Below are positions 6,451 to 61,030 of a stretch of DNA of 64,000 nt, one piece after another (the stretch's first letter is position 1; every line of letters begins with the position of its first letter). The DNA comes from Deroplatys truncata. Its lineage: Eukaryota > Arthropoda > Insecta > Mantodea > Mantidae. The stretch lies in NCBI GenBank assembly GCA_030765065.1, contig CM060990.1, positions 4,582,001-4,646,000 on the forward strand. The letters run 5' to 3'. The notes below the pieces were generated by a model, which worked only from the letters and a program-made list of their open reading frames with translations, had not been told where the DNA came from and searched no databases. A program made the translations under genes and the position numbers.

Positions 6451-6455
6451 AATTA

Positions 6456-6895: not shown

Positions 6896-6899
6896 TTTT

Positions 6900-7212: not shown

Positions 7213-7256
7213 TTCCGCAAAGGAGATAAATAAATATTAACACTAAATCCCTAGTA

Positions 7257-7262
7257 GTTGTA
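7257..7262 (+). repeat. Target site duplication GTTGTA, left
   Basis: Six bases immediately left of AGTAGC (7,263), repeated exactly at 22,886-22,891 right of GCTACT. Six-base duplications are characteristic of Polinton integration. Confidence 0.8.
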
Positions 7263-7289
7263 AGTAGCATATTATAGAGAGAGCTGGGC

Positions 7290-8470
7290 AGCTTTTGCGT
7301 TAATGTGAAAAGATAGCGAAAACGAGAGCCTTCAAGGAGGAACATGAGTTTATATGGGGAAGATATGAATACCAGGGCTGATGCTAAGCTAGTCAGATGC
7401 TGAAGGAGGGGATTGTGCTTTATACGAGAGAGATAGGGAATACCAGAAAGGAGGCTTAACTATATAGGCCCTGAAGGGTAGAACATGACTTTATATGGGA
7501 GACATAGCAAACCGAGGAGAGGTTTTAGGCTAGGAGGGATTGAATGATAGAGTATGCGTTTATATGCGAGAGATAGGGAATACGAGGACCGCTGCTAGGC
7601 TAGACAGCGGCTGAAGTAGGAGAATGCGCCTTATGTGAGAGAGGTAGGGAATACGAGAAGTGCTATGCTAGACAGAGTTTGAAATGTGGAGTATGACTTT
7701 TATGGGAAAGATAAGGAAAACGCGAACAGACGGTATGATAGACAGGTGCTGAATTAGGGGGGACACAGGCATATACTGAAGAGATAGTGATTACGAGTGG
7801 AGGTGCTGGACTAGACAGGGATTCAAGGGTAGAATATGGCGTTAATATGGGAGAGCTAACAAACCGAGGATAGGTATTAGGCTAGGAGATTTTGAATAGT
7901 AGAGTAGAGTATGAAGAGACAAGGAAAACGAGGGTAGATGCTATTTTGAGAGAGCCTTCAAGGAGGAAAATGCGTTTATATGGGAGAGATAGAGAAAACG
8001 AGGTGAGATCCTAGGTAGAGGAGGTGCTGAAGGAGGGGAAACGCCCTTTATATGATAAAGGCAGGAATACGAGGAGAGGTAGTAGGTTAGACAGAGGTCG
8101 AGGAGTACGGTATTCGTTTATGTGGGGAAGATTTGGAAAACGGAGAGGAATCCGTGGTAGAGCAGGGGATGAAGGAGGAGCAAAGCGTTTTATATGAGAG
8201 AGGTGGGGGAATACGAGGAGAGGTGCTAGTCTAGACAGAGGGTGAGGAGTACAGTATGCTTTTATATGCGGAATACATGGGAACCATGGAGATATGCTTG
8301 ACTAGACAGAAACTGAAGAAGAAGAATGTGGGTTTATACAGGTGAGGTAGGAAATCAAGGAGAGATGCTACTCTGGACAGATACTGAAGGAGAGAGATAC
8401 GCTTTATACGGAAGAGATATGGGGAACATGGAGTGATGCTAGGATAGATAGAATTAAAGGAGAAAGAGGT
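7290..8470. repeat. 70-bp minisatellite of lineage B terminal repeat (left arm)
   Basis: About 17 diverged units carry GCGTTTATATGGGAGAGATAG followed by ACGAGGAGAGGTGCTAGGC and a TGAAGGAGG block. TTTATA cores occur near 7,350, 7,419, 7,491, 7,560 and 7,630. The opposite strand therefore shows a CATATAAA TATA-like motif in nearly every unit. The same array is inverted at 21,690-22,870 and present at 58,618-60,180. Confidence 0.85.
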
Positions 8471-9175
8471 TTAGGCCAAAAAGACACCGCTAATTAAGGT
8501 TTAGAAATGTTTTGACACCTTTTGGAGGTATTTTATCGACACTAAGGGCGAAGACCCCCGGCGCTAAAGTTCGAAAATATCTGTGTCAATCAATCAGGTA
8601 ATGTTCGTCCACGCATAACGTCATCTAACGTTATTGAAAAAATCAAGGATTTATACTGCTAACGTCCCGGCACTGTGAATCTAAAGGGTTGGACGCTGGT
8701 CGTCGATCAAAGTACCCCGCAGCGTGTATTTTCATTGATACGGTATAAAGAGTATTTCGGATTGCATCGTATGTATGTAGGGTAAACCGGTTAGTATCAC
8801 AAGTGTCAGGGTAATTCAGAGCAACGTTTCTTACCAGAGCTATTTAATGTAATTTTCATATGATTCGGGTAGAATGTAGGGTATTTAAGTCATTTTAACA
8901 GGTGATTCAGGTAGCGTCACAGGTATTCACGGTAATATAGAGATTAATTAGATTATAAACATTTCTCACCCAACATTACACCACTTATGTATACGTTTAT
9001 CTAAATCTTAGAAACTTGTTGCATGTTAAACAGCTAGTGTGCTAGACGGAGCGGAAAAAACTGCATATTGATTTACAGTGAAGTTATATAGAAGTATTCT
9101 AAACTAAACCCACACCGAACGCCCTAACCTATCCCTACCTTAACTTCTCATTGTCTATCCAATCCTGTGATTGTT
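8470..9175. other. Arm segment without genes (left arm)
   Basis: Non-coding sequence shared by both arms (inverse at 20,970-21,690). It begins with an AAGACACCGCTAATTAAGG block and includes TACCCCGCAGCGTG. No ORF or RNA signal is recognised. Confidence 0.6.
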
Positions 9176-9815
9176 TAACCTGACCAACGTAACAAGACGT
9201 AGCATCACGTAACATAACCACGTAACAAGACATAACATTGCGTAACATAAGCACGTAACAAGACGGAGCATCACCACGTAACAGAAGCACGTAACAAAAC
9301 GTAACACCACGTAACCACGTAACAACCATGTAACCACGTAACAACACGTAATCACATAACATAAGCACGTAACCACGTAACACCATGTAACTTAAGCACG
9401 TAACAAAGTAACAAGACATAACACCACGTAACATAAGAAAGTAACCACGTAACAAGGCGTAACATCAAGTAACACAACGTAACATAAGCACGTGACAAGA
9501 CGTAACACCACGTAACATAAGCACGAAACCGTGTGACAAGACGTAACATAACCACGTAACCAGGCAACATAAGTACGCAACCTAATGTAACAACACGTGA
9601 CATAGCCATGTAACTACGTAACATCACGTAAACAGGTAACGCCATGTAACATAAGCACGGAACCGTGTGACAACACATAACATAACCACGTAACCAAACG
9701 TAACAACAGGTAACATAAACATGCAACTACGTAACAAGACGTAACACTACGTAACAAGATGTAGCACTGCGTAATATAGCCACGTAACCAGACGTAAGAA
9801 CAATACGTAACCAAC
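9175..9815. repeat. ACGTAAC array 1 (left arm)
   Basis: Dense run of ACGTAAC heptamers spaced mostly about 10 to 15 bases, for example CACGTAACAAGACGTAACAC. The inverse array is at 20,345-20,965. All six frames stay open for 60 or more codons, so the many Tyr/Val/Leu/Cys-rich ORFs here are artefacts. Confidence 0.85.
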
Positions 9816-10668
9816 CCATTGCTAGGACAATCTAAGCTAACCCATCCTTCATAACTTAGACAATCACTTCGCGGGCCTAACCTAACCTAACGAATCCCAG
9901 GCCATTTTCTCATCATCTATTCTACTCATTCATCGTTTAACCTAATTTGGTGTCATCCTAACTTAAAGCCAGGCATTCTAACTCGAAACTAATCATGTAT
10001 TCCCAATTCTATACCCTAACCTAGCACCAAACTTCCTAACCCAGCCTAACCAGAGCTAACCTCAAGTTTCCTTTACTGAAATTGTGGCGATTCATTTAGG
10101 TATTATTATTTGACTGTCTTAATTGAAAAGTTTTACGTTAACATAGCTATATTTTAGATCGTTATTGATGTCTCTCCCCTTTATCTTGGCTTGAGACTAG
10201 CACTAGGATTTGCTCCTAATGGCATGGTTAACGCCTTCAATCTTCTTATCTTTCTTTCTTCATCAGATGTGTACAGCATTCGAGTAAAGTTTCCTGTAAA
10301 AATTGTGGATTCGTGGACAAAAACATTCTCTTGAAATCAAAGCTACATTCTCTTAAGTATTGTTCGTAATGCTGAAATGTCCAAACGATTATGTTGCTAT
10401 TTCAATCCCGTCAATAACTTTTATCATCGTAAGAAGTAAACCTGATCTTATGCACTTATGCTAACGTAACAATATTGCATCGGCATGATGTCAAAATTCA
10501 GAAGAGTTGTAATGATTTCACTGCAGTATGTTCTTATAGTTCTTGGTAGCCTTTTTGAGAATATGTTCAAATTGGCCACATATAACATAAGTTAATTTCA
10601 GTAATCTTTTGACTTTGTGTCCTTACTAACCATCATACTTCACAGTACCATCATATGGTATATACAAA
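9816..10668. repeat. Spacer of duplicated unit 1, with (TTAGG)3 tract
   Basis: Holds CCTAACCTAACCTAAC at about 9,880, then AT-rich sequence ending in GTCCTTACTAACCATCATAC and an ATATGGTATA motif. About 85% similar by eye to 11,276-12,140, which makes the array plus spacer a tandem duplication of about 1.45 kb. No gene is seen. Confidence 0.7.
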
Positions 10669-10669
10669 C

Positions 10670-11275
10670 AAGAAGCAACAACACGTAGCAACCATGTAAC
10701 CACGTAACAAGACGTAACACCATATAACCACGTAACACAAGCACGTAACCACGTGACAAACGAAACGAAACGTAACATAAGCACGTAACAAAGTAAAAAG
10801 ACGTAACACCACGTAACATAAGCACGCAACCGCGTACCATGAGGTAACATCACGTAACACCACGTGACATAACCACGAGAGAAGACGTAACACCACGTAA
10901 CATAAGCACGTAACCGCGGGACAAGACGTAATATTCTCACGCAACCTGGCAACTTAAGAACGTAACCTAACGTAACAACACGTAACATAACCATGTAACT
11001 ACGTAACATCACTTTAACACGTAACGCCACGTAAGATAAGCACGTAACCATGTGACTACACGTAGCATAATCACGTAACAAAACATAACCACAAGTAACA
11101 TAACCATGCAACCACGTAACAAGACGTAACATCACGTAACCTAACCGTATAACACCACGTAACAAGATGTAACACAGGGTAACATAACCACGTTACAACA
11201 CGTAACATAACAATGTAACCACGTAACACCGCGTAACATAACCACGTAACAACGTATAAGAACAACACGTAACCA
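10670..11275. repeat. ACGTAAC array 2 (left arm)
   Basis: Second ACGTAAC heptamer array, starting just after the ATATGGTATATAC motif. Inverse at about 18,930-19,500. No coding content. Confidence 0.85.
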
Positions 11276-12140
11276 ACCCATTGCTAAGACAATCTAAGCT
11301 AACGCATCTTTCATAACTAAGACAATCACTACGCGGGCCTAACCTAACCTAACGAATCCAAGACCATTCTGTCATCATCTATTATACTCAGTCGTCGTGT
11401 AACATAATTTTGTGTTATCCTAACCTGATTCCAGGTATTCTAACTCGAAACTAATCATTTATTTTCAATTGTATACTCTAACCTAGCATCAAACATACTA
11501 ACCTGGCCTAACCAGAACTAACCTCGGGATTCTTTTAGTGAAATTGTGACGTTTTATTTAGGTTTTATTATTTGAGAGTCTTAATTGAAGAGTTTCACCT
11601 CAACATTGTTTTATTTTAGTTCGTTGCTGGCGTCTCTCCCCTTTATCTAAGCTTGAGACCAGCACTAGGATTTGCTCCTAATGGCAGCGTTAACACCATC
11701 CCCTTCAATCTTCTTATTCTTCTTTCATCTTCAGATTTGTGCAGCACTCAAGTACACTTTCATGCAAAAACTGTAGTCTCGTGGAGAAAATCATTCTCTT
11801 GAGATCCAATCTACATTCTCTTAAGTATTATTTGTTATGATGTAATGTCCACACAACTTTATTGCTATTTCAACCTCGTCAATAACTTTTATCATCGTAA
11901 TAAGTAACTTGTTCTTATCCACTTATACTAACGTGACAATATGTCGTCGAGATGATGTCAAAGTTCAGAAGAGTTGTAATGATTTCACTGCAGTATGTTC
12001 TTATAGTTCTTGGTAGTCTTTTTGAGAATATGTTCAAAATCCCCACATATAACATAAGTTAATTTCAGTAATCTTTTCACTTTGTGTCCTTACTAACCAT
12101 CATACTGCATAGTAACATCATATGGTATACACAATTTCTT
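11276..12140. repeat. Spacer of duplicated unit 2
   Basis: Copy of 9,816-10,668. Its far end (CCATCATACTGCATAGTAAC near 12,100) runs directly into the truncated polymerase gene on the minus strand. No gene is seen. Confidence 0.7.
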
Positions 12141-12768
12141 ATATTTCTCCAGTTTTCCAATCCACCTCGTCCATTTTGATCATCATAATGGGCTAAAAAG
12201 CGCTTACAGTTATAAACACGTCCATTGTGCTTAGATCTCTGACATCGAAGAAGTTTTTTTAAAATTCTTTATATATACGTAGTGATGTTTTCCACTACTG
12301 TCACTCAACAGTAGCAGTCACGGTGTTCAGGTAGTTCAGTCTCAGCAGCCTTTATTGGTTGCACCTTTTGCTTCTCGTCCAGGCCGAAGACGTTGATAGA
12401 CACACTGTTAAACTTCTCAAAGTTAGATATTTGAGAAAGTGGAGTTGGATAAGTAACACAGCTGAAGTCATATTTATTTTGAAGTTGCTTGTATTTGCTC
12501 AGGCGTTGAGGCTTGATGCTGACAAATTTGGCTAATACAGATACATAAAGCATAGCTCATCAGTATAATTCTGGATATTAATTCAGGCTTTTCTTGATTT
12601 AACAGCTTGCGGTAGAGCTAGGTAACTGCTTCGAAGATTGGAATTCTTTAATCTACAGGTCGTCTCATGTCTACTTTTATCATACGCACGTAGAAATGTC
12701 TTTCCACATTTACCGCAAGGGCATACAGTAACGCTTGAAATAATATCCGTATATGCTGACTTATTCAT
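12077..12768 (-). pseudogene. Truncated Polinton polymerase N terminus (left arm)
   Basis: Mirror copy of the right-arm gene at 17,435-18,126. It begins with a C2HC zinc-finger segment (C-x2-C...H-x4-C, 12,768-12,583), then after a frame change carries a block with SQISNFEKFNSVSINVFG, which resembles the conserved N-terminal region of Polinton polymerases. One base is missing relative to the right arm near 12,305-12,320, which ends the open frame early. The gene is cut after roughly 210 codons and fused to the terminal repeat at the ATATGGTATA motif. It lacks exonuclease and polymerase domains and cannot make an active enzyme. It reads outward, away from the element centre. Confidence 0.65.
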
Positions 12769-12882
12769 CTTTACTTTGACGTAATAACGTATTAGGCCTT
12801 CTTCAAGGAAATTTACGCCTCTTTACCTTAATAACACGTTAGAAACCGATTATTTTCTGAGAGAACAACGATGTTGACACCT

Positions 12883-13484
12883 CACCTTATGTGAGTACGG
12901 GTTTGGCGTACTCGGGGGTTCCCGAGCCATTCATCGCCATCATCATCCTTCCACCCTCGTCCGGTCGATTTGAGTTCGTCCTCGTGACCGGGGGACTCAA
13001 GGTAGGCTGTCGTGCGTTCTGTGCATTTCATTACATGACGCCCCTCGCCATCGTTTCTTACATCTCTTCTATTTACGCATATCTCGCCCCACGTCCATTC
13101 ATTTACTCATCTGTTTGCCTTCTTCGCCGGCCTACCTTCCTTGCGAAACGCACACAAACGTTTGGTGTCTTTTATCCTTTTATTTTAATCCTTCGTGGAT
13201 ACAGCCTAACAGATACCCGCACACTGGGTACGCAGCTGGGTGAGTGGGTAATGGTGTCATCCCCACCACTCGGGGTCGTCATGTAGGGTATGTGTTGGTA
13301 TCCGCTGTTCAACTGCAGTCCCACGGGTGACCATTCCATGAGCTGCTGACTTCCGACGGCCATTGGGTCCCTCTGTCTATGTTCTGGGAAATGTGACCGT
13401 GGGGTGAGTCTGGTATAGATAGGCCACTCACCCAAGCCGGGGTAACGCTCGGGAAGTCAGAGCCCGAGGTCGGAGACAGTTGCA
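12883..13484 (+). other. 5' region of a non-LTR retrotransposon
   Basis: The left arm homology stops at about 12,882 (GTTGACACCTCA), and unrelated, GC-richer sequence begins that leads into the retrotransposon ORF1. It contains no convincing gene; short ORFs at 12,891-13,435 on both strands are judged untranslated. Confidence 0.55.
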
Positions 13485-14708
13485 ATGGTGGAGGATTTCT
13501 TTCGTATGGAGCACCCTTTCTCCATTATAAATAACAAGCGCCGAAAAGTGATTGTAACAGAAGTAGCATCACCACCATCTGGTTGTTAATTAGTGATTGC
13601 CCGAACTGAGGAAGGATAAACTTTCGAGAAGCTGAACCCGTTTATCATACAGAAGGGCATTGACTCAATTGCTGGTCCGGTCAATTCCTGCACTCGCCTT
13701 AGAAATGGTTCATTGTTAGTTCAAAGTCCGATCAGCAAAGTAAGAGCTCGTTGCGCGCTACGCTTCTCCACGGTTATCCCATCCGTGTTGAGAACCACCG
13801 CACCTGTAATTCCTGTCGAGGCGTCGTTACCACCCATATCCTCGATGGTATGTCGGACGATGAACTGGTTGAATATCTTTCTGATCAAAAGGTGACAGCA
13901 CTTCATAGATTGCAGGCTAGACGCGTCGGTGTATTGGTACCCACTCGTACCCTGTTTCTAACTTTTGATGGTGTCCATCTGCCTACGAATATCTCAGATG
14001 GGTACGATCGTATTGCGTTGAGGCCTTATATTCATAGACCTCTGCGTTGTTTTAAATGCCAACGTTTTGGGCATACGCAAGTCTCCTGCAAGACTGCCGT
14101 TTCCATCTGTGCCTCTTGTAGTCAGCCCTCATACGATGGTATCTGTTCCTCAGCCTCCAACTGCGTCAATTGCAAAGGGTCTCATTCTGCTTCATTTGCC
14201 GACTCTCCGTGGTACTTGGACGAGAAGGCGATCCAGGAGATCCGGGTAAAGGAGAAATTCTCCTTCGCTGAAGCCCGGAGGCCTTACCATGAGCGCCAAC
14301 CTTCGCTTCTGCGATCAGGTGAATTCAGTTCTGTTGTTGCCTCGCCAGTACCATGCGGAGATGGTGAAACTCAGACCTAGACAATGACTGCACTAACCGC
14401 CACTACCATCCGGCCTTGCATTTCTGGCACAGTTAATAAGCCCTCTAAAGCTGGAGCTAAGGTGCTGAAGTCGGAAAGCATTGACAAGAAGTCCAACCAG
14501 AAACTACGTAAGGAAGATTTTCTCAAAGACCCTCCGCGTCCGCGCGATAAGAAAAATTCACCTTCTCGTCCTCGAAGGATGCTCCTGGGACAAGCCGCGC
14601 TCAGCGACCCTATCACCCATTGCCACCCAGAACCGATTCACGGCGCTTGAATCGGTTTCTGGCACTGAGCGCGTGGGCCCCTCCCTTCGAGGAGTCTATG
14701 GAGTCTGA
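13485..14708 (+). pseudogene. Non-LTR retrotransposon ORF1 (gag-like, zinc knuckles)
   Basis: ORF1 nucleic-acid-binding protein of a Jockey/I-like non-LTR retrotransposon. It starts with ATG 13,485 (MVEDFFRM). It has a stop near 13,588, shifts frame near 13,620 and 13,755, and is best preserved at 13,757-14,378. A CCHC zinc knuckle, CFKCQRFGHTQVSC, lies at about 14,046-14,090. A second (CASC...C) lacks its His, and a third (CVNCKGSHSAS) lacks its last Cys. The C-terminal part continues in another frame to a stop at about 14,708 and contains NRFTALES. RNA binding and chaperone activity are the family roles. The broken frames make it inactive. Confidence 0.75.
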
Positions 14709-14798
14709 CCAACTCCATACCAAAAGCCCGAGCCCAAAGGTTAAACAAACGGTTATTTTAAGCCGCCCTTCTAAGGAGACAGTTTATCCCTTTTATTC

Positions 14799-15020
14799 AT
14801 GGCTATCCTGACCTGGAATTTACGTAGTGTACGAGCGTCCTGCAACTTTTACTGCGTTCCCATTCACCTCTGGTGGTGTGTTTGCAGGAGACTAAGCTTC
14901 GCCCTCACGATCCTTTTGATCTCCGAGGGTATACTCCGGTTCGCTACGATCTTGAACCGGATGAGGGTACTCCTGCTCATGGAGGTGTCATTTTGTTAGT
15001 GCGTAACGACGTTCATTTTC
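14799..15020 (+). pseudogene. Non-LTR retrotransposon ORF2, endonuclease fragment
   Basis: Only the first part of the apurinic-like (EEP) endonuclease domain of ORF2 is present. It starts with ATG 14,799 (MAILTWNLRS; the WN is a family landmark). After a frameshift, LQETKL gives the catalytic Glu, and RGYTP and GGVILLVRND follow. Sequence homology stops near 15,020, so the rest of the endonuclease, the reverse transcriptase and the 3' tail are all missing. Loss of the 3' half is the reverse of the usual 5' truncation. Confidence 0.7.
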
Positions 15021-16315
15021 AAACTCATATTATGTTTGTATTTAATCCATAAATAAGAATAAAACATGTATCAGAAAAAACAAAGAAAAAAATGTCCCGC
15101 TTAGATATCTGGATCGACCGTAATTCTGCCGCTTCAAATCTCCCTCCACTTGAGCCGATTAAAAGCGACACTAGCGCCCCAAGCAGCAGGTTTATCGTTA
15201 ATCCATTTGTCTAAGCAGGGACATACACTACTGCTATGCGGTAAAGTGTGATTATATCTTTGGAATGTGGTGCGTCATTGATGTGTTATTCCAAGTTGAC
15301 CTGGAGGTCTTGGGTTGAATCCAGTGACATCAATACAAATTCATCTTCGAATAACATCAGAAGTAATTAAGAGAAAGACGTCGAATAAACGTTATTACGT
15401 TTATATCATAAGCTGGTTTCGTTGTAATGCATATTTGGCTACATGTCGTGGTGACGAATATTACATCTCTTAGATGCATGCAGGACTAAAACGTAAAGTT
15501 AGCGTTAATAACTTGAAAATTACGCAAGTCGCCGGCGTGACTTAAAGCGCCTACGAGACCTATAGCTCCGTCCTGTACGGTGCTCTCTCACGCACTGAAG
15601 TTATCTCAGTCCCGCATCCATGGCTGGATTGGGTCATCTGCACCCCACTCTCGCTCCTACCTCCCCAATTCTTCCCTTTCCCTGCCTGTCACTGCCTTCC
15701 ACTGTCTTCTATTACGCGCTCTGTAGGCCGCTAAGGGAAGTTGCACTGTTCCGGTCCGCAATTGAACTGGAAGGAGGGAGGCGGAAGTCGCTATCTTGGG
15801 GTTTTAGCACATGAAGACGGCCATTATAGGCGTTAAACCGCGCTTGACTTCGTTTTAAAAGAAATTTAAAGATGGATTGCAAAACATTATCTTTAACAAA
15901 GACGACCTTAAAAAAGAAATGTGACAATCTTTAAACTAAATGCAAAAAGCAGGGATGTGGAACTTTAAAATGTGTAGACACTTTGAGCTAAAAATACAAT
16001 AAATTTATTAAAGCATTTCCTAATACAATTCTACAAGCTTAAAATTGGAGTAACTATGGAAAAAATTATTTTTCTGGTGTTTGCCGTCAAATGTAGTGGT
16101 TTTCTGTACAACCGTGTATTAAGCGTGGTTTTCTGTGAGAAATGGGTTTAAAGTGCAGTTTTCTCTGATAAATGGACATTAAGCATATAAAAATGTAATA
16201 TTGTGTACTGATTCTTTGGGGAATGAGGGCAAGATGTAAAGAAAGTATTGATAAAGAAATGGAAACATAAAATAACAGGTTATATACATGAATTTAATTA
16301 AATAAGTGGAGAAAA
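15021..16315. other. Central spacer, no gene recognised
   Basis: Non-coding. Contains a tRNA B-box-like GGTTGAATCC at about 15,310 and a GC-rich block at 15,540-15,830 whose ORFs on both strands look random. Origin unknown. Confidence 0.4.
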
Positions 16316-16319
16316 ACTT

Positions 16320-16690
16320 CTTAACGTTTGTGGTTTGCACTCGGAGTTCCCTGGATCGAATACCGTAAGGACGGCCACTCCAACTTTAGGCTTCTCACGG
16401 CTTTCGCTGGTAGACAGCTGAATGCTAATAGGTTTCATCTCCTCCGATTTCATTTCCTTTAATTCTATTTCATTTGCATCTTTCACGTATGCTTCTAGGG
16501 TCCCTGGTTCGATTCCCGTCGGTCGCCCACTCTGGTCTCGGATTTTCGCGAGGTTCACTTTCTGTAGACGAATGCCTGAGTAGTGTATGCTATCACGATT
16601 CATTCATTCTGTTTCATTCTATTTCATTTACATCTTTCATTTCATTTGCATCTTTGTGCTCCTAGGTTTCGCAACGTATGGTGAATGCAT
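16320..16690 (+). repeat. SINE-like tandem pair with TTTCATTTGCATC tails
   Basis: Two diverged units of about 160 bp. Each has a B-box-like block (GGATCGAATACC near 16,352 and a better GGTTCGATTCC near 16,510), a GTAGAC(A/G) block, and a tail of repeated TTTCATTTGCATC. No clear A box is visible, so this is probably a partial tRNA-derived SINE dimer. The ORFs over it are artefacts. Confidence 0.45.
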
Positions 16691-16699
16691 GCCCAAGGA

Positions 16700-17040
16700 C
16701 ACTTGCCCCTTGCTCGGTTAGTGGATCGTTCAACCTAACGAGTGATACACCCGAATCTGTACGAAGACCTACGAATAATACATGAACCGTCGCAAACATT
16801 TACTCTAAGCATCCGAACCTGTACGGAAACGCCCGAACACCACCGAACAATACATGCATCCTCGCAATATTTTGCTCACTCACTCTAAGCACCCGAAGCT
16901 ATTCGAAGACCTTCGAATACAAAGAAACGCGTTCACTTCAACCAAGCATCCGAACATGCGCAAAGACCTACGGATACACCCGAACATCAGTGTAACACGA
17001 ATTGAAATATAAGAGTTTAGACGCTTTATCAACCGTTTTA
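16700..17040. repeat. Degenerate CCGAA-rich repeats
   Basis: Three to four diverged units share CACCCGAA, GTACGAAGACC and TACATGCATCCTCGCAA-like blocks. No gene is seen. Confidence 0.5.
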
Positions 17041-17051
17041 GTATTACAATT

Positions 17052-17412
17052 CAGTATATAGTTGATCTAAAAAGGTTCGTGCCTCCTCTATAAATAGGGC
17101 GATCTCGGGCCTTGGACTTCATTCTGCTAATTAACTCCGAAATGTCAACATCGTTGTTCTCTCAGAAAATAATCGGCTTTCTAAAGTCTATCAACGTGGA
17201 CAGGTGTACATTTCCTTAAAGAAGGATTAATTCGCTATATAATTGATCTAAAAAGGTTCTTGCCTCTCTATAAATAAGGTGATCTCGGGAATTGGACTTC
17301 ATTCTGCTAATTAATCCTGAGGTGTCAACATCGTTGTCCTGTCAGAAAATAATCGGCTTTCTAACGTGTTATTAAGGTAAAGAGGCGTAAATTTCCTTGA
17401 AGAAGGCCTAAT
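17052..17412 (+). promoter_or_regulatory. Tandemly duplicated polymerase promoter (right arm)
   Basis: Two direct units of about 180 bp (17,052-17,232 and 17,233-17,412). Each has TTGATCTAAAAAGGTTC, a TATA box (CTATAAATA) and, about 30 bases on, TTCATTCTG, a plausible initiator. The second unit leads into ATG 17,435. The left arm keeps only the proximal part (12,778-12,882). Confidence 0.65.
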
Positions 17413-17434
17413 ACGTTATTACGTCAAAGTAAAG

Positions 17435-18126
17435 ATGAATAAGTCAGCATATACGGATATTATTTCAAGCGTTACTGTATGCGCTTGCGGTAAATGTGGA
17501 AAGACATTTCTACGTGCGTATGATAAAAGTAGACATGAGACGACCTGTAGATTAAAGAATTCCAATCTTCGAAGCAGTTACCTAGCTCTACCGCAAGCTG
17601 TTAAATCAAGAAAAGCCTGAATTAACATCCAGAATTATACTGATGAGCTATGCTTTATGTATCTATATTAGCCAAATTTGTCAGCATCAAGCCTCAACGC
17701 CTGAGCAAATACAAGCAACTTCAAAATAAATATGACTTCAGCTGTGTTACTTTTCCAACTCCACTTTCTCAAATATCTAACTTTGAGAAGTTTAACAGTG
17801 TGTCTATCAACGTCTTCGGCCTGGACGAGAAGCAAAAGGTGCGTCCAATAAAGGCTGCTGAGACTGAACTAACTGAACACCGTGACCTGCTACTATTGAG
17901 TGACAGTAGTGGAAAACATCACTACGTATATATAAAGAATTTTAAAAAACTTCTTCGATGTCAGAGATCTAAGCACAATGGACGTGTTTATAACTGTAAG
18001 CGCTTTTTAGCCCATTTTGATGACCAAAATGGACGAGGTGGATTGGAAAACTGGAGAAATATAAGAAATTGTGTATACCATATGATGTTACTATGCAGTA
18101 TGATGGTTAGTAAGGACACAAAGTGA
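17435..18126 (+). pseudogene. Truncated Polinton polymerase N terminus (right arm)
   Basis: First roughly 220 codons of a lineage B DNA polymerase. ATG 17,435 opens a segment with a C2HC finger (CGKCGKTF...H...C). A stop at 17,618 and a frame change lead to the open stretch 17,650-18,126, with SQISNFEKFNSVSINVFG, HHYVYIKNFKKLL and a zinc-ribbon-like GRVYNCKRFLAHF. The equivalent ribbon in the 62,919-63,619 segment keeps its second Cys (CKRCFTHF), which is Leu here. Coding stops at an abrupt fusion to the terminal repeat (VYHMMLLC), so exonuclease and polymerase domains are absent. It reads outward from a duplicated TATA promoter and mirrors 12,077-12,768 with a few percent divergence. Confidence 0.7.
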
Positions 18127-18925
18127 AAAGATTACTGAAATTAACTTATGTTATATGTGGGGATTTTGAACATATTCTCAAAAAGACTACCAAGAACTAT
18201 AAGAACATACTGCAGTGAAATCATTACAACTCTTCTGAATTTTGACATCATCTCGACGACATATTGTCACGTTAGTATAAGTGGATAAGAACAAGTTACT
18301 TATTACGATGATAAAAGTTATTGACGAGGTTGAAATAGCAATAAAGGTGTGTGGACATTACGGCATAACAAATAATACTTAAGAGAATGTAGATTGGATC
18401 TCAAGAGAATGATTTTCTCCACGAGACTACAGTTTTTGCATGAAAGTGTACTCGAGTGCTGCACACATCTGAAGATGAAAGAAGAATAAGAAGATTGCAG
18501 GGGATGGTGTTAACGCTGCCATTAGGAGCAAATCCTAGTTCTGGTCTCAAGCTTAGATAAAGGGGAGAGACGCCAGCAACGAACTAAAATAAAACAATGT
18601 TGAGGTGAAACTCTTCAATTAAGACTCTCAAATAATAAAACCTAAATAAAACGTCACAATTTCACTAAAAGAATCTCGAGGTTAGTTGTGGTTAGGCCAG
18701 GTTAGTATGTTTGATGCTAGGTTAGAGTATACAATTGAAAATAGATGAATAGTTTCGAGTTAGAATACCTGGAATCAGGTTAGGATAACACAAAATTATA
18801 TTACACGATGACTGAGTATAATAGATGATGACAGAATGGTCTTGGATTCGTTAGGTTAGGTTAGGCCCGCGTAGTGATTGTCTAAGTTATGAAAGATGCG
18901 TTAGCTTAGATAATCTTAGTAATGG
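18127..18925. repeat. Spacer of duplicated unit 2 (right arm)
   Basis: Inverse of 11,276-12,140, including GTTAGGTTAGGTTAGG near 18,855. No gene is seen. Confidence 0.7.
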
Positions 18926-18926
18926 G

Positions 18927-19500
18927 TTGGTTACGTGTTGTTCTTATGTGTTGTTACGTGGTTATGTTACGCGGTGTTATGTGGTTACATGGTTATGTTA
19001 CGTGTTGTTTCGTGGTTATTTTACCCTGTGTTACATCTTGTTACGTGGTGTTACACGGTTAGGTCACGTGATGTTACGTCCTGCTACGTGGTTGCATGGT
19101 TATGTTACTTGTGGTTATGTTTTTTTACGTGATTATGCTACGTGAAGTCACATGGTTACGTGCTTATCTTACGTGGCGTTACGTGTTAAAGTGATGTTAC
19201 GTAGTTACATGGTTATGTTACGTGTTGTTACGTTAGGTTACGTTCTTAAGTTGCCAGGTTGCGTGAGAATATTACGTCTTGTCCCGCGGTTACGTGCTTA
19301 TGTTACGTGGTGTTACGTCTTCTCTCGTGGTTATGTTACGTGGTGTTACGTGATGTTACCTCATGTTACTTTGTTACGTGCTTATGTTACGTGGTGTTTC
19401 GTTTGTCACATGGTTACGTGCTTGTGTTACGTGGTTATATGGCGTTACGTCTTGTTACGTGGTTACATGGTTGCTACGTGTTGTTGCTTCTTGTTTGTAT
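18927..19500. repeat. GTTACGT array 2 (right arm)
   Basis: Inverse of the ACGTAAC array at 10,670-11,275. Open frames rich in Tyr, Val, Leu and Cys are repeat artefacts. Confidence 0.85.
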
Positions 19501-20344
19501 ATACCATATGATGGTACTGTGAAGCATGATGGTTAGTAAGGACACAAAGTCAAAAGATTACTGAAATTAACTTATGTTATATGTGGCCAATTTGAACATA
19601 TTCTCACAAAGGCTACCAAGAACTATAAGAACATACTGCAGTGAAATCATTACAACTCTTCTGAATTTTGACATCATGCCGATGCAATATTGTTACGTTA
19701 GCATAAGTGCATAAGATCAGGTTTACTTCTTACGATGATAAAAGTTATTGACGGGATTGAAATAGCAACATAATCGTTTGGACATTTCAGTATTACGAAC
19801 AATACTTAAGAGAATGTAGCTTTGATTTCAAGAGAATGATTTTGTCCACGAGACCACAATTTTTACAGGAAACTTTACTCGAATGCTGTACACATCTGAT
19901 GAAGAAAGAAAGATAAGAAGATTGAAGGCGTTAACCCTGCCATTAGGAGCAAATCCTAGTGCTAGTCTCAAGCCAAGATAAAGGGGAGAGACATCAATAA
20001 CGATCTAAAATATAGCTATGTTAACGTAAAACTTTTCAATTAAGACAGTCAAATAATAATACCTAAATGAATCGCCACAATTTCAGTAAAGGAAACTTGA
20101 GATTAGCTCTGGTTAGGCTGGGTTAGGAAGTTTGGTGCTAGATTAGGGTATAGAATTGGGAATACATGATTAGTTTCGAGTTAGAATGCCTGGCTTTAAG
20201 TTAGGATGACACCAGATTAGGTTAAACGATGAATGAGTAGAATAGATGATGAGAGAATGGCCTGGGATTCGTTAGGTTAGGTTAGGCCCGCGAAGTGATT
20301 GTCTAAGTTATGAAGGATGGGTTAGTTTTGATTGTCTTAGCAAT
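19501..20344. repeat. Spacer of duplicated unit 1 (right arm)
   Basis: Inverse of 9,816-10,668, again with a (TTAGG)3 tract near 20,272. No gene is seen. Confidence 0.7.
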
Positions 20345-20965
20345 GGGTTGGTTACGTATTGTTCTTAGGTCTGGTTACGTGGTTATATTACGCAGTGCTA
20401 CATCTTGTTACGTGGTGTTACGTCTTGTTACGTAGTAGCATGTTTATGTTACCTGTTGTTACGTTTGGTTACGTGGTTATGTTATGTGTTGTCACACGGT
20501 TCCGTGCTTATGTTACATGGCGTTACCTGTTTACGTGATGTTACGTAGTTACATGGCTATGTCACGTGTTGTTACATTAGGTTGCGTACTTATGTTGCCT
20601 GGTTACGTGGTTATGTTACGTCTTGTCACGCGGTTTCGTGCTTATGTTACGTGGTGTAACGTCTTGTCACGTGCTTATGTTACGTTGTGTTACTTGATGT
20701 TACGCCTTGTTACGTGGTTACTTTCTTATGTTACGTGGTGTTACGTCTTGTTACTTTGTTACGTGCTTATATTACGTGGTGTTACGTGGTTACGTGCTTA
20801 CGTGCTTAGGTTATGTGATTACGTGTTGTTACGTGGTTACATGGTTGTTACGTGGTTACGTGGTGTTACGTTTTCTTACGTGCTTGTGTTACGAGGTGAT
20901 GCTCCGTCTTGTTACGTGCTTATGTTACGTTATGTTACGTGATGCTACGTCTTGTTACGTTGGTC
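20345..20965. repeat. GTTACGT array 1 (right arm)
   Basis: Inverse of the array at 9,175-9,815. No coding content. Confidence 0.85.
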
Positions 20966-21690
20966 AGGTTAAACAATCACAGGATTGGATAGACAATGAG
21001 AAGTTAAGGTAGGGATAGGTTAGGGCGTTCGGTGTGGGTTTAGTTTAGAATACTTCTATATAACTTCACTGTAAATCAATATGTAGTTTGTTCCGCTCCG
21101 TCTGGCACACCAGCTGTTTAACATGCAACAAGTTTCTAAGATTTAGATAAACGTATACATAAGTGGTGTAATGTTGGATGAGAAATTTTTATAATCTAAT
21201 TAATCTCTATATTACCGTGAATACCTGTGACGCTACCTGAATTACCTGTTAAAATGACTTAAATACCCTACATTCTACCCCAATCATATGAAAATTACAT
21301 TAAATAGCTCTGGTACGAATCGTTGCTCTGAATTACCCTGACACTTGTGATACTAACCGGTTTACTCTACATACATGCGATGCAATCCGAAATACTCTTT
21401 ATACCGTATCAATGAAAATACACGCTGCGGGGTACTTTGATCGACGACCAGCGTCCAACCCTTTAGAGTCACGATTCCGGGACGTTAGCAGTATAAATCC
21501 TTGATTTTTTCAATAACGTTAGATGACGTTATGCGTGGACGAACATTACCTGATTGATTGACACAGATATTTTCGAACTTTAGCGCCGGGGGTCTTCGCC
21601 CTTAGTGTCGATAAAATACCTCCAAAACGTGTCAAAACATTTCTAAACCTTAATTAGCGGTGTCTTTGTGGCCTAAACCTCTTTCTCCTT
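20966..21690. other. Arm segment without genes (right arm)
   Basis: Inverse of 8,470-9,175. Nothing else is recognised. Confidence 0.6.
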
Positions 21691-22870
21691 TAATTCTATC
21701 TATCCTAGCATCACTCCATGTTCCCCATATCTCTTCCGTATAAAGCGTATCTCCCTCCTTCAGTATCTGTCCAGAGTAGCATCTCTCCTTGATTTCCTAC
21801 CTCACCTGTATAAACCCACATTCCCCTTATTCAGCATCTGTCTAGCCTAGCTCTCTACCCATTTCCCATGTATTCCGCTTATAAACGCATACTGTACACC
21901 TCAACCTCTTTTTAGACTAGCACCTTTCCTCGTATTCCGCCACCTCTCTCATATAAAGCACATTACTCCTCCTTCAGCCCTTGCTCTACCACGGATTCCT
22001 CTCCGTTTTTCATATCTTCCCAACATAAACGAATACCGTACTCCTCGACCTCTCTCTAACCTACTACCTCTCCTCGTATTCCCTGCGTCTATCATATAAA
22101 GGGAATTCCCGCTCTTTCAGCACCTCCTCTACCTAGGATCTTACCTCGTTTTTCCTATCTCTCCGATATAAACGCATTTTTCTCCTTGAAGGCTCTCTCA
22201 ACCTAGCATCTACCCCAGGTTTCCTCGTCTCTTCATACTCTACTCCACTATTCAAACTCTTCTAGCGTAATACCGCTCCTCGGTTTGCTAGCCCTCCCAT
22301 ATAGTGGCCATATTCTACCCTTCGAGCCTTGTATAGTCTAGCACCTCTCCTCGTATTCCCTATCTCTCCCCTGTAAACCTATATTGCCCCTCCTTCAGCA
22401 TCTGTCTATCATACCATCTGTCCGCGTTTAGCTATCTTTCTCATAAAAGTCGTACTCCACATTTCAAACTCAGTCTAGCATAGCACTTCTCGTATTCCCT
22501 AACTCTCTCATATAAGGCGCATTCTCCTGCTTCAGCCGCTGTTTAGCCTAGCAAAGGTCCTCGTATTCCCTATCTCTCTCATATAAACGCATACTCTATC
22601 ATTCAAACCCTCCTAGCCTAATACCTCTCCTCGGTTTTTTATGTCTCCCATATAAAGTCATACTCTACCCTTCAGGTCCTGTCTAGTAAAGCCTCTTTCC
22701 TCGTATTCCCTATCTCACTCGTATAAAGCAAAATCCTCTCTTTCAGCATCTGTCTAGTCTAGCATCAGCCCTGGTATTCATATCTTCCCCATATAAACTC
22801 AAGTTCCTCCTTAAAGGATCTCGTTTTCCCTAACTTTTCAGATATAAACGCAAAAGTGGCCCAGCTGTCT
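21691..22870. repeat. 70-bp minisatellite (right arm)
   Basis: Inverse of 7,290-8,470. Units show CATATAAA plus a CTAGCCTAGCACCTCTCCTCG-like block. The units differ more between arms than the inner arm sequence does. Confidence 0.85.
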
Positions 22871-22885
22871 CTATAATATGCTACT

Positions 22886-22891
22886 GTTGTA
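22886..22891 (+). repeat. Target site duplication GTTGTA, right
   Basis: Exact match to 7,257-7,262, directly after the terminal GCTACT. Confidence 0.8.
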
Positions 22892-23085
22892 GTTTTATAA
22901 ATTAATAACGACAGTAAAAATAATTATGTATTAACTCACCTTGTTAGCGAAAGGCAGTTTGTGCAGATCAGTCGGAATGTGTGTTTAAGTGCAACCTATA
23001 CGCACCTTATATATCAATGGATCACCTTGTGTATTGTAACATCGTCCTAGATCACGTTGCGCGTCTATTTTTAACCGCGTTTACT

Positions 23086-23096
23086 TGTTATATAAA
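23086..23096 (+). promoter_or_regulatory. TATA box of polymerase gene, copy A1
   Basis: TTATATAAAG precedes a TCAGTAAC initiator-like site by about 35 bases. A2 has TATATAAGG at 27,369-27,377 in the same place relative to its polymerase start. Confidence 0.5.
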
Positions 23097-23165
23097 GGGA
23101 GGAAATTATCCTAGCGTTCATCAGTAACTCAGCTACTGTGAAACAGACACCTACTGCTTTAGAAG

Positions 23166-26420: not shown

Positions 26421-26439
26421 ATTTTCCGTCCTGCCAAAA

Positions 26440-26850
26440 CCATTGTTTCCCCTATAGGTAGTTTTTAATTTTTAACGTGCTTTATTTTTGTTATACATAT
26501 ATTTTAACATATCAATTGAGCAATTTTTTGATTTTTAAGAATAAGTTGCTTTTTATCTGAGTTTTTTAACATTAATACACCCCTTTACTCCGTAAAATCT
26601 CTATCTATACACCCTCCTCTTATCTATAAACATAAAAGAGCTAAGTTAGGCTTTTTGGCAATGCAAAGATAAGTGTATTTTTGGGGCGTTGCCGAAATTC
26701 CTGTTCGGATCATTACGGTTTGCTGAGGTATTTCGTGTGCTTTAGGTGAAAGAATGTCTAAACTAACGGATTATTCACTGCATCTTACGGATCTCTTAAT
26801 ATTGGATCTAAGTAACTTGATCTGTATAGTCAACTGAAAATGATAGAGAA
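26440..26850 (-). pseudogene. Polinton dUTPase (copy A2)
   Basis: Homologous to 6,456-6,895. The block QTVMIRTGISAT is intact near 26,720. The substrate-binding segment that reads IAEKSSL in A1 is IAKKPNL here, and the motif 5 region is degraded. At least three stops or shifts are seen. Its position between the OB-like and unknown genes is the same as in A1. Confidence 0.55.
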
Positions 26851-26869
26851 ACTCTTAGTTCCTCTGAAA

Positions 26870-27162
26870 TAAAATATCATAACCGTTATTACAAGAAATC
26901 CTTAAAATAAAAACGTTAACGAAGGTTTTTCAATATTAATGTCATCAAGGTCCGTTTCCTTAAAAACGGTGAAGTATTTTCTTGGAATGAATACTTCAAC
27001 GGGATATTCAGTGCTTTTTTGAAATTTAATAGATGTTGAGGGTCCATATTTGGTGGTTAATTTTGTAGCTCCGATCAATTTATATGGAATATTCTTTAAT
27101 GGATCTCCAATTTGCATGAATTTAATATTCTTTTCTTGAATAAATCTTGTAAGGAAACCCAT
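26870..27162 (-). pseudogene. OB-fold-like small protein (copy A2)
   Basis: Starts at ATG 27,162 (MGFLTRFIQEKN), reads through to a stop at about 26,902, and continues in homology to about 26,870. The core is TKYGPSTSIKF, then EVFIPRKYF, then LDDINIEKPSLTFLF. Better preserved than A1. Divergent from the polymerase, with about 365 bp between the two starts containing TATA-like sites. A possible ssDNA-binding role is inferred from fold pattern and neighbours only. Confidence 0.55.
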
Positions 27163-27368
27163 TGTGTAAATAAGATAAATATCCACCGATAACGTGTTGT
27201 AGTTTTCCTTTAAAACAATAAATAGAGTAAAATAATTTACCTTGTTGATAATTGCTGCAGTGTCCAGTGGAAGTGTGCTGTTTCAGTGCATCGTATGGCC
27301 TCCAGATACACGTTGCATCAGCATCAAGGACAAGTGAAAGTTTCATTTTTTAACTGCATCTATTAGGT

Positions 27369-27377
27369 ATATAAGGC
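27369..27377 (+). promoter_or_regulatory. TATA box of polymerase gene, copy A2
   Basis: TATATAAGG about 160 bases upstream of ATG 27,528 and about 70 bases before a GTAAGTAAC donor-like site, as in copy A1. Confidence 0.5.
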
Positions 27378-27527
27378 GGGAGAGACAATCTCGGCCACCG
27401 AGTATTACTTCCACGCTGTTACTCTGCTACTTTAGAAAATGTAAGTAACAAACAGTTAACGCATAATACGTTTTGGAAATGCAATTAGCTTTTACGCATC
27501 CTTATATTATCTTGGCCTGTTTTTTTC

Positions 27528-30500
27528 ATGGAAAATATTAACGTCCTAAATGAAATACGCCGACAGTACAAAAGTTTTAGCGCACACGTGAGGCATTACG
27601 ATATTCAGATTAATCCTGCTTCCAAAAATGAAAATCCAATCCTTTACTTTAGAAATAGCATGCAAGCTGTGTTAAATTTTATTTTAAGTGGTGTGGAACC
27701 CAGTTATTTGGGTCTGTCTATAAGCAACTCTGTGAATTTACAAGATAAACCGATAGGACTAAGTTTCCGCAGAAGCGATCACGTATCTTTGGATGTATTA
27801 TTGTCTGTTATAGAGAAAATATGGCAATCTAACGCTAATTTTTATGCCACAGACACCTTATCCGTAAACGTAGATCACGTTGAAATGCTATTAGGACATG
27901 GTAGAATCAAAACAAAAGATAGCCATTTATCCACATTGGCACACGTAATAGTCCATCGTTAGAAATAAAAGCAAAACAAAATGCTTAGCCTATGCTCTAA
28001 AGGTAGATATAGCACATTTCAATTGAGAGCCAAATTACTTAAGTTATAGAAAAGGTCGAAAAAAAATTTCCAAGGTCGACGAGCTTCTAAAGGCCACAAT
28101 AGTTGATCTAAGCAGTGGTGGAGGACTAGCAGAATTGCAAAAATTTCAGGACCATCTTTACGAAAACAGAATTATAGTTTATGAAGGGTTGCAGTGCGAA
28201 AACATAATATATGATGGGAAAATAAATTCCCAAATACGTTCAATCTCCTGTATGATTCATAGGAAAAACTTTATAATGTGATTGTAAATCTCACAGGTGC
28301 CATTCTAAAGTATATGTTTGCGAAGGATGCAATAAGGCAATGAGTTATGAGGGAGCGAAGACTTATAAATGCCAGTATAGATGCTCTGGATGTAATTCAG
28401 TTCCGCCCCGCATCTTTGAAGGAAACTATATATATTGTAATACATGCAATAGGTACTTCAGGAGTCAAAGCTGCTTGAATAATCATGTCCAGAATAAAAT
28501 TAGCACTCAAATAATTTCCGAATGGAAGTGACATTGTTTAATTTGTAGTCAACAGTTAAAACCAAACCATCAGTGCTATATGTCATACTGTAGAAGCTGT
28601 AAAAGTAACGAGATGCCGGGCCAATTTTGCTAAATGGCAACGATTAGCGCAAAAATACCATCATCGGATAAGGTCTTATTCGTGTTTTACTACATGGAAT
28701 GTACTCAAAGCACGTAAATAGTAAATAATACATATCTTTATCTTACCAATTTACTCTGCTTAGGACACTATTGTTTTCTTTGTGAGAAAAAAAGGATATG
28801 AGCGAACGGGGCAGCCAGTGTGGAAAACGTAGGCTTTCATTTTGGGGTAATGGTTGCATCAAACAACTAATGGGATATCTGCGCCAAAATAGACATTTTT
28901 TGAAAGGATAATTGCAACTGCACATAATAACAGAGTATATGATCTCATGTTCATCTTAGATTATGCAATAAAACAGGGATGGGTACCGGTTTTAGTAATG
29001 AATGCTGCTAAAATTTTATCCATGGAAATGGAACATATAAGCTTTCTGGATAGTTTGAACACTTTACCCATGAAATTGAGAAGCTTGCCGGAAGGTTTTA
29101 GAATAGACTGTGTGACAAAAGGTCACTTTCGGCATTATTTCAATACTCCCGAAAACATGAACTATGTAGGTTGTTATCCCGATTCTGTCCATTGCGGTGT
29201 TGATCACATGATGCAAGACGAACGCAGAGAATTTTTACAATGGCACGAGAAGGAAAAAGATGACGTTTTCGATTTTAGAAAAGAACTTGAAGCCTACTGT
29301 ATGGCACACGTTGAAGTGCTTAGAGAAGCGTGTTCTATATATAGAAATGCTTTCATAGACATCGGAAGTATTTATGTATTTCAAGAATCTATTACGATAG
29401 CTTCGGCATTCAACAAAGTATTTAGAAACGTTATTTGAAATCGAAGACTATAAGACTAATTCCTTTTGGAGATTATAGGGAAGCCATTAAACAATCTATA
29501 AAGGCTCTCAAGTGGCTTAGTTATGAAGAAATTAAAAGGGGAATTTGCACTAAATATTCAGGTAATGATAGAGAGGTGCGAATACCCGAATTATCTTACC
29601 TCAAATTACATGATTTTTGTGAGGAGACGAGAGAGGTATTTAAATTCTTGGGGTATTACCACCACAACCATGTCTTACTAATAGAGATGTGCTGGTCCTA
29701 GACACGCAAACAGAGACGCTTGCAGATAGATACGAGCCGAAAAAATAAACTTGTATTACGTCTGTATTTGGGAGCGTGAAGTTTTGGACGTTTTAAAACA
29801 ACATCCAGCTCTATACAACCATTCCGTTGTGATTAAATGTTCCTCTCATTCTTAGAGATTCCCTCAATGGAGATAGAACGGAAGCACTGAAAACTTATTG
29901 CAATACCAATAAATAAAGTCTCATTAAGTATTACCTCGTGATGTCGCTGTATCCTTATATATGTAAATGTTTTAAGTTTCCCGTAGATCACCCCATAATT
30001 TACATTGGAAAGAATGTACCAACATTTTGGAAATGCTTCAAAAAGAGGGGGTTATAAAATGTAGAGTTTTGGCAAAAAATAGAAGTCTTTATCATACTGT
30101 CTTGCCCTTTAGATGTCACCTAAAGTTAATATTTGGTCTTTGTTACATCCGCGCGAAAAATTAAAATGACGGTGAATGTAGCCATGATAGGGAGCTAATC
30201 GGTACTTGGATCGTAGACGAGGTACGAAAAGCCGTTAAGATGGGTTACGAAGTGAGAGAAAGTTTTGAATTTTACGAATACGCAATGGAACAATATGATA
30301 AAGATGAAAATAATAGAGGGATCTTTGTAGATTACATTAATAGTTTTTTAAAATAAAAAGCAGAGGCCAGCGGGTATCTCTTTTGGGTTAAGAGCGAAGA
30401 GGATAAGAAGATATACATTCCAAGTATTTTCAGAGCGATGGAATTCTTTTGGATAAGTCGACAATTATAAAACATCCAGGTTGAAGGGCTATAGTAAAAT

Positions 30501-58320: not shown

Positions 58321-58617
58321 CAGATCAGCGACGTAAGCTAAAGGTAAACAGAATTGGAAGCGAACTCCAGGGTGGCTGCTAAATAAGCGACATATGTTGG
58401 AATGCATTTAATGATGTGATCATGTTTGCTTGTATTTCGCGGGTGCAGCTGTGTATGTCTTGCGTATGTATCCGTCTATGTCTGCACATTGATAGACAAA
58501 ATGGCGGAAGCGAGACGAAAGATGATTTCGATCGACTCCTTGAAAACGCTGAGAACTGGCTGCAGATGCTGAAAGATGATTCTGATTAGGAGAACACGTT
58601 AGTAGGGTATACAGAGG

Positions 58618-60180
58618 GATTCTGGCGCAGTTTTGCGTTTATATGGGAAAGGATAGGGAAAACGAGGGTGGATGCGGAGGAAAATACGTTTATATGGGGA
58701 AGATAAGGACTACCAGGATTGATGTTAGGCTAGATAGAGGTTGAAGGAGTGGGGATGCGCTTTATATGAGAGATACGGGGAATACGAGGAGAAGTGTTAG
58801 ACTAGATAGAGTTTGAGAAGTGGAATAGCCGCTTATATGGGAAAAATAGGGAAAACCTGAACAGATAATAGGCTAGACAATGCTGAAGCAGGGGGAATAC
58901 GATACATATACAGGAGAGATAGAGGATACGTGGAGAGGTACTAGACTATTCAGGGCTTGAAGGGTAGAGTAGGGCTTTTTATATGAACAGACGAGGAAAA
59001 CGAAGGTATATGCAAGGTTGACAGATCCTTCAAGGAGGAAAAATGCGTTTATATGGAGAAGATAGGGGAAACGAGAAGAATTCCGAGGTAGGGCAGGGAC
59101 TCCAGGAGGGAACGATATGCTTTATACGACAGAGATAGGGCATACGAGGAGAGGTGCTAGTGTAGACAGAGGTTAAGGAGTAGGGCATACGCTTATATGA
59201 GGAATGTATGGAAAACGGAGACAGACGGTATTATAGACAGAAGCTGGGCCACTTTTGTGTTTATGTGGGAAAGGATAGGGAAAATGAGGGTAGATACGAC
59301 GGTTCAACGAGGAAAATGCGTTTATAGGGGAGAGATAGGGAATACCAGGGATGATGCTAGGTTAGTCAGATGCTAAAGGAGGGAGGGATACGCTTTATAC
59401 GAAAGAGATAGGGAATACAAGGAAAGATGCTATACTAAACAGGACTTGAAGGGTAGAATATCGCGTTTTATATGGGAGGAATAGCGAACCGAGGAGAGGT
59501 ATTAGGCTAGGAGGTTTAAATGATAGAGTAGGCGTTTATATGCGAGAAATAGGGAATACTAGGGTCGATGCTAGGCTAGACAGGGCTGAAGTAGAGGAAT
59601 GCGCCTTATATGAGAGAGCTAGGGGAATATGAGAAGTGTTAGGCTAGACAGGGTTTGAGGTGTGGAGTATGACTTTTAAGGGAATGATAGGGAAAACGTG
59701 AACAGATAATAGGCTAGACAGATGCTGAAGGACGGAAATATAGGCTTATACGGGTGAGATAGGGAAATACGAGGAGAAGTGCTAGACTAGACTGATGCTG
59801 AAGGAGGAGGGGATACGCTTTATACGGAAGAGATAGGGAATACGAGGAGAGGTACTAGACCACACAGGACTTGAAGGGTAGAATATAGCGTTTTTATATG
59901 GGAGAGCTAGCAAACCGAGGAGAGGTATTAGGCAGGAAGGTTTGAATGACAGAGTATGCGTTTATATGGAGAGACGAGGAAAACGAAGGTAGGTGCTAGG
60001 TTGAGAGAGTCTTCAAGGAGGAAAATGCATTTATATGAGAGCGGTAGGGAATACGAGGAGAGGTGCTAGGCTAGAGAGGGGTTGAGGAGTAGAGTATACG
60101 TTTATATGGGAGAAATGTGGAAAACGGGAGTGGTACAAGGATAGACAGGGGTTGAAGAAGAAGGAGGAATGTAGATTTAT
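58618..60180. repeat. 70-bp minisatellite (second palindrome, left arm)
   Basis: About 21 units of the type at 7,290-8,470. A terminus-like block (GGTATTATAGACAGAAGCTG) recurs inside at about 59,228, suggesting a duplicated element end. Confidence 0.8.
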
Positions 60181-61020: not shown

Positions 61021-61030
61021 TTACATTCTT

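Follow-up and report, generated by a model that had tools for sequence, protein, structure and literature searches.

A 64,000-nucleotide stretch of the genome of the mantid Deroplatys truncata (assembly GCA_030765065.1, contig CM060990.1, positions 4,582,001 to 4,646,000 of the forward strand; hereafter the window) contains a 15,623-bp palindrome, E1, at window positions 7263-22885, which has the same Polinton-like terminus at both outer ends and is flanked by an exact 6-bp duplication. Both ends were located for seven further palindromes of the same plan in this genome. With a probability of roughly 0.7, we interpret these palindromes as snap-back, head-to-head derivatives of Polintons, which integrated as palindromes with the integrase supplied in trans.

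Architecture of E1 and its insertion site

A preliminary description of the window, made from its letters alone, had reported a 15.6-kb palindrome with inverted arms of about 5.6 kb. Self-BLAST and global alignment confirm this: the edges of E1 are exact and its arms, 7263-12884 and the inverted 17318-22885, are 94.5% identical across 5,637 columns, while the global alignment of the arms (5,622 versus 5,568 bp) has 224 substitutions in 5,555 aligned bases and 10 gap events, a Kimura two-parameter distance (K2P) of 0.042. The ends AGTAGC/GCTACT, each abutting an exact copy of GTTGTA (GTTGTA-AGTAGC...GCTACT-GTTGTA), are likewise exactly as described. E1 thus has the 6-bp target-site duplication and the AG...CT terminal inverted repeats of the Polinton/Maverick elements, and its terminus is 76% identical over 172 bp to the end, at 24170, of a neighboring Polinton (window Polinton C). 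At the same time, one terminus at both outer ends, inverted arms and an unduplicated centre are the features of a snapback or head-to-head dimer. From the end to the centre, each arm comprises the following (self-BLAST, Tandem Repeats Finder (TRF) and map; Table 1): T, a terminal segment with tandem repeats; a 1.4-kb tandem duplication that contains minisatellites of the ACGTAAC type; and N1 and Zn, two N-terminal pieces of the polymerase B (PolB) gene whose reading direction is outward. The arms had been said to run from the terminus to the polymerase promoter: they do reach the N-terminal pieces of PolB, but the rest of the gene is unmatched in them, the part covered by the query P0001 having no match in either arm.

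The proposed location of E1 inside another Polinton is borne out by its flanks. These resemble a Polinton, with dUTPase-like frames on the left and polymerase N-terminal frames on the right (named by eye), and in self-BLAST 5364-7232 aligns collinearly with 25372-27181 (73%) and 23151-24142 with 27424-28405 (78%). The same flank order is uninterrupted at 25372-28405, which is therefore a paralogous site without E1, and the joined flanks 6900-7262 and 22886-23400 align across the junction to a single stretch of it. This paralogue has diverged and has gaps at the junction, so it shows the absence of the insert and does not give the exact bases that preceded insertion.

The centre of E1 is asymmetric, consisting of a LINE fragment (about 12882-15232) and a repeat region, X (15481-17116), that recurs in related elements. 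Hence, a reading of this core as a polymerase was rejected. The ORF1 of the LINE has 17 matches, among them Trichonephila 'transposon BS' proteins, and by eye the LINE is Jockey-like. A related LINE copy, 85-87% identical, is present at another locus, H; the same 5' part of the LINE is central in E1 and in H (C16:358155676-358157844), in opposite orientation relative to X. We also considered X as a hidden integrase gene and rejected this, since, by eye, the reading pieces in the X regions of four elements look low-complexity and do not form one conserved frame.

A family of palindromes flanked by target-site duplications

A second palindrome, D, which goes unmentioned in the preliminary description of E1, starts in the same window at 58601 and ends 4 kb past the window end. 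As a whole (C16:4640601-4649955) it is 9,355 bp long, with 4.3-kb arms that are 95.5% identical (168 substitutions), a 699-nt centre and two PolB copies, and it is flanked by exact CACGTT duplications. Its polymerase passes the Pfam PF03175 cut-off. The top match of this polymerase (window 61764-63020, minus strand) is an annotated protein of the bee Hylaeus anthracinus (70% identity over 90%), and another, unnamed match has 70% over 75%; the polymerase at window 28-903 matches the H. anthracinus protein at only 38%. Horizontal transfer is possible. No viral contigs were found among those searched with the PolB of D.

The preliminary description had suggested a genome search for further copies with the same ends. 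Searching the 4.29-Gb genome with the 438-bp T segment yielded 52 match rows, and 40 of 6,722 candidates were scored; we therefore claim no copy number. Fifteen loci were considered in all. Eight of these (E1, D, A, B, C, J, K and M) show both ends together with a duplication that is perfect or differs at a single base, and this proportion is not a frequency, as A, B and C were chosen because the match list showed inverted pairs. These eight palindromes range in length from 9.4 to 23.3 kb and share a single plan: T, PolB with its C-terminus outward, N1, Zn, X, a loop, and then the mirror image. Their centres are variously deleted: in D, B, J and M one of the PolB copies is missing its start; the centre of K is made of 3.2 kb of Zn and X; and A, like E1, has no PolB match beyond N1 in either arm. 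PolB matches are kept in six of the eight palindromes. The palindromes A and C have the same arm/loop boundary and a common 0.5-kb central loop (79% identity over 425 bp), of which J keeps a part.

For the duplications, element ends were set by the homology of the termini before the flanking 6-mers were compared. These match at five or six bases in 8/9 elements with both ends found: at six in E1, D, J and M, and at five in A, B, C and K. In a shifted-flank control, at least five bases matched in 26 of 3,960 comparisons. The perfect duplication around E1 had been taken to indicate that the palindromic molecule itself was the integration substrate, and the presence of eight such palindromes at different sites, each with its termini flanked by a duplication, strengthens this proposal.

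Gene content and a candidate source of the integrase

E1 was described as lacking an integrase, and this agrees with our searches: integrase pieces of the window Polintons or of locus N (below) have no tblastn match in 7263-22885 at E 1e-3, a search of limited sensitivity. Queries for the capsid, packaging ATPase and protease also have no match in E1, their labels having been assigned by eye and cross-matches between the window Polintons and locus N serving as control. Across the family, the integrase, capsid, ATPase and protease queries are unmatched in all eight palindromes within the bases seen, which for K and M are 11,107 of 14,798 and 9,371 of 12,999 (parts of the left arms being left out). 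Rfam searches at gathering scores found nothing, a search of the PDB by sequence gave a single chance-level row, and a near-match search for phage records with the terminus found none. Because polymerase, integrase and capsid genes were sought and not found in it, E1 is Polinton-derived and not itself a Polinton by membership.

The same polymerase lineage does occur beside an integrase gene in this genome, at locus N (C16:205558316-205573824, with the right end at about 205573824). Here two PolB copies in inverted orientation (775 bp, 99.7% identical) lie on either side of N1, Zn and X1. After the left copy come ATPase-, integrase- and capsid-like frames, arranged as in window Polinton C; a further frame resembles, by eye, an adenovirus-type protease. 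The match of the left PolB stops at residue 493 of 685, its C-terminal part being unmatched, and the bases seen exclude 205569817-205572999, between the right PolB copy and the terminus, as well as the left end. The integrase of N passes the Pfam rve cut-off; NCBIfam gives, for the integrase piece, only IS481, IS3 and IS30 transposases below cut-off. Queries from the window Polintons B and C match their counterparts in N, and some N queries match window Polinton C. Locus N is a candidate source of the integrase acting in trans.

Several Polinton regions accompany E1 and D in the window. Window Polinton C (24170-39713, right end extrapolated) has ATPase-, integrase- and capsid-like frames, with labels given by eye. 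Frames of a further Polinton integrase region lie at 39890-41103 on the minus strand, 75% identical to 1983-3236; the integrase frame at 2233-2706 is below the Pfam rve cut-off. At 41428-41832 there are four tandem copies of 101 bp (99% matching).

Table 1. Features of the palindromes E1 and D and of the E1 insertion site (window positions)
Feature	Position	Strand	Basis or remark
Left target-site duplication of E1, GTTGTA	7257..7262	.	self-BLAST, flank 6-mer test
E1 left arm (terminus AGTAGC, tandem repeats, minisatellites, N1 and Zn on -)	7263..12884	+	self-BLAST, TRF, map
T, 438-bp terminal segment	7263..7700	+	probe for genome search
N1, N-terminal PolB piece, left copy, outward	12153..12632	-	map
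Zn, N-terminal PolB piece with zinc-finger-like motif, left copy	12666..12879	-	named by eye; Pfam C2H2 below cut-off
LINE fragment in E1 centre	12882..15232	+	ends approximate; ORF1 13703-14377
X, central repeat region (X4, X3 and X1 segments)	15481..17116	-	common to palindromes A, B, C and locus H
Partial Zn duplication, 97 bp	17143..17238	+	copy beside Zn also mapped at A, C, F, K, M, N and C7:280 Mb
E1 right arm, inverted copy of left arm	17318..22885	-	self-BLAST
Zn, right copy	17323..17537	+	map
N1, right copy	17571..18050	+	map
Right target-site duplication of E1, GTTGTA	22886..22891	.	self-BLAST, flank 6-mer test
Uninterrupted paralogous site in neighboring Polinton	26850..27700	+	diverged, gapped at junction
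Left target-site duplication of D, CACGTT	58595..58600	.	right copy after C16:4649955, beyond window
D, cut by window end	58601..64000	.	
D PolB, left copy, outward	61100..62912	-	
D unduplicated centre, 699 nt	62920..63618	+	continuous with start of right PolB copy
D PolB, right copy	63434..64000	+	continues beyond window

Origin of the palindromes

We infer protein priming, snap-back, the supply of the integrase in trans and the order of these steps. A nascent strand begun at one terminus would run inward through PolB, fold back near the other end and copy itself outward, and the product would be a head-to-head dimer that ends on either side in the same terminus; loss of the block extending from the ATPase to the protease would be combined with this snap-back. 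The dimer, having two proper ends, could then be inserted by the Polinton integrase of another element, which would generate the 6-bp duplications, and those palindromes that keep PolB might aid their own replication. After insertion the centres would be deleted or invaded, as by the LINE in E1, and the arms would partly homogenise each other.

Two versions of this history differ in whether the palindromes multiplied as such. The first is a self-perpetuating palindromic Polinton lineage: with two polymerase genes and no integrase, it would be comparable to a satellite or defective-interfering genome of the resident Polintons, multiplying in palindromic form with its arms re-copied from each other at each cycle of hairpin replication. 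We advance this tentatively, at somewhat less than even odds. The loop common to A and C argues for a palindromic ancestor or for a fixed fold-back site. In the second version, which appears unlikely to us, though not by a wide measure, each palindrome arose separately when a one-armed parent snapped back shortly before inserting, and none multiplied in palindromic form. It would account for the differing centres, as the places in PolB, N1, Zn and X that are joined vary among D, K, M, B and J; for a D centre junction that did not reappear in 20 windows at related loci; and for arms that, in K, M, N and D, resemble each other more than they do those of other elements. The differing centres are also explained, however, by internal deletions of one full palindrome, and the boundary and loop shared by A and C, and in part by J, speak against separate origins unless a fold-back hotspot is assumed, which would reconcile the two.

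In trees, the two arms of an element pair as sisters for T in E1, A, B and D, for the PB segment in B, D and J, for N1 in E1 and A, for X3 in A and C, and for a 382-bp PolB segment in D, K, M and N. Divergence between arms ranges from a K2P of 0.035 (F) to 0.145 (inner part of A), and its distribution is uneven. In the outer 1.25 kb of E1, 130 of 1,245 positions differ (10.4%), whereas in the inner 4.3 kb only 94 of 4,310 do (2.2%; Fisher p about 5e-32). In K, 12 of 239 differ outside and 34 of 1,500 inside; D is more even, each full block of 250 columns containing between 5 and 16 differences. The outermost 254 bp of M were left out of the comparison, as the repeats are out of register there (73/253). 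Given the contrast in E1, its inner arms were probably homogenised after insertion; arm identity as a simple clock for E1 was rejected on the same ground, and one-step insertion is better supported by the duplication than by the identity of the arms.

Such conversion is also what lends some color to an origin after integration, in which a one-armed element inserted and gained its second arm by chromosomal inverted duplication or arm-to-arm conversion. Conversion seems to occur in E1, and the divergence of A is uneven in the opposite sense (K2P 0.056 in the outer part, lower than that inside). Nevertheless, true termini lie at both outer ends with one duplication in 8/9 elements at different sites, and a chromosomal inverted duplication would not put a second terminus at the duplication; we consider this origin very improbable. 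An assembly or library fold-back artefact, which the preliminary description had named as the way its claim might fail, is scarcely credible: the two PolB copies of N are identical in a 374-bp tree segment and have 2 differences in 775 bp, which counts in its favor, but the arms of E1 and D carry 224 and 168 substitutions, the 6-bp duplications occur at independent sites, and, as far as tried, the uninterrupted paralogue of the E1 flanks also fails to bear it out.

A number of observations weigh against our preferred reading of integrated snap-back dimers. The terminus here abuts the C-terminal end of the polymerase, unlike the orientation in vertebrate Mavericks, in which the polymerase module points toward the element centre (PMC8097293); a simple fold-back is thus insufficient, and loss of the internal block must also be assumed. 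Integration in trans is itself a step that the reading has to suppose. Of the 15 loci, three (N, F and H) have inverted arms but are incomplete or without a duplication, and of these F and H count against the reading: F has inverted arms 95.7% identical and no second terminus in the bases seen, while H has inverted pieces and AGTAG ends with flanks matching at 2/6 bases only. At a further four (E, G, I and C7:280 Mb) a second arm was unseen; locus E adjoins another Polinton (integrase match 86%). An unbroken one-armed parent was not found at the loci examined, no genome-wide search having been made for one. The D centre junction was not met again in 20 short centre windows fetched at related loci, in 11 of which PolB runs on into N1; four of these windows come from K, M, N and C7, and 16 from other loci. 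In the tree of T, the two arms of C, those of J and those of H are not each other's sisters. Finally, the integrase, ATPase and protease pieces of N miss window Polinton C at E 1e-3, the reach of these queries being limited, and labels beyond integrase and polymerase (capsid, ATPase, protease, dUTPase) are read from frames with no profile match.

Relationship to known systems and implications

Polintons are held to copy their linear genome from protein-bound ends, with protein priming like that of adenoviruses; to our knowledge this has not been watched for any animal Polinton. Elements with comparable structures are known in several disparate contexts: the FB and Galileo fold-back transposons, whose inverted repeats are likewise very long and made up of tandem sub-repeats, with duplications of other lengths and transposases of other families; the yeast linear killer plasmids, which are protein-primed PolB replicons yielding hairpin or head-to-head deletion dimers and are cytoplasmic, not integrated; and the Tetrahymena Tlr elements, relatives of Polintons whose inverted repeats contain tandem repeats, in which we know of no polymerase duplication in both arms. 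Set beside FB and Galileo, the palindromes reported here have an end that resembles a Polinton end, and 6-bp duplications. With the Polinton/Maverick (adintovirus-like) elements they share those duplications, the AG...CT inverted-repeat ends and, in relatives of E1, PolB; they differ in their mirror-image arms of about 3.8-9 kb, the outward polymerase and the unmatched integrase, ATPase, protease and capsid queries.

Vertebrate Mavericks have 6-bp duplications, a protein-primed polymerase and AGT-repeat end motifs, which are thought to serve jumping-back initiation (PMC8097293). Adeno-associated virus (AAV) has snapback genomes, self-complementary subgenomes that are either symmetric or have an asymmetric loop (PMC8235507); these are subgenomes of a single-stranded DNA virus, seen packaged, and do not form a family inserted in chromosomes between target duplications. 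In yeast, the formation of palindromic linear fragments by template switching at the fork, giving inverted linear DNA, has been proposed and tested (PMC10766183). Non-autonomous Polinton derivatives with such arms had been thought undescribed, and indeed no palindromic or non-autonomous Polinton/Maverick class turned up in the literature searched, which included few subscription journals and did not extend to Repbase reports.

What we describe are mirror-image derivatives of Polintons, without a recognisable integrase gene and inserted whole, which can be likened to the defective mirror-image genomes of viruses. Strand switching in linear replication can be recognised by the snap-back dimers that it leaves. 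If our reading holds, snap-back dimers integrated between 6-bp duplications would be a trace of free linear molecules in the germline. They would also suggest that a Polinton integrase can work in trans, on DNA whose ends are suitable. Polintons would thereby gain a satellite or defective-interfering class, as is found in viruses.

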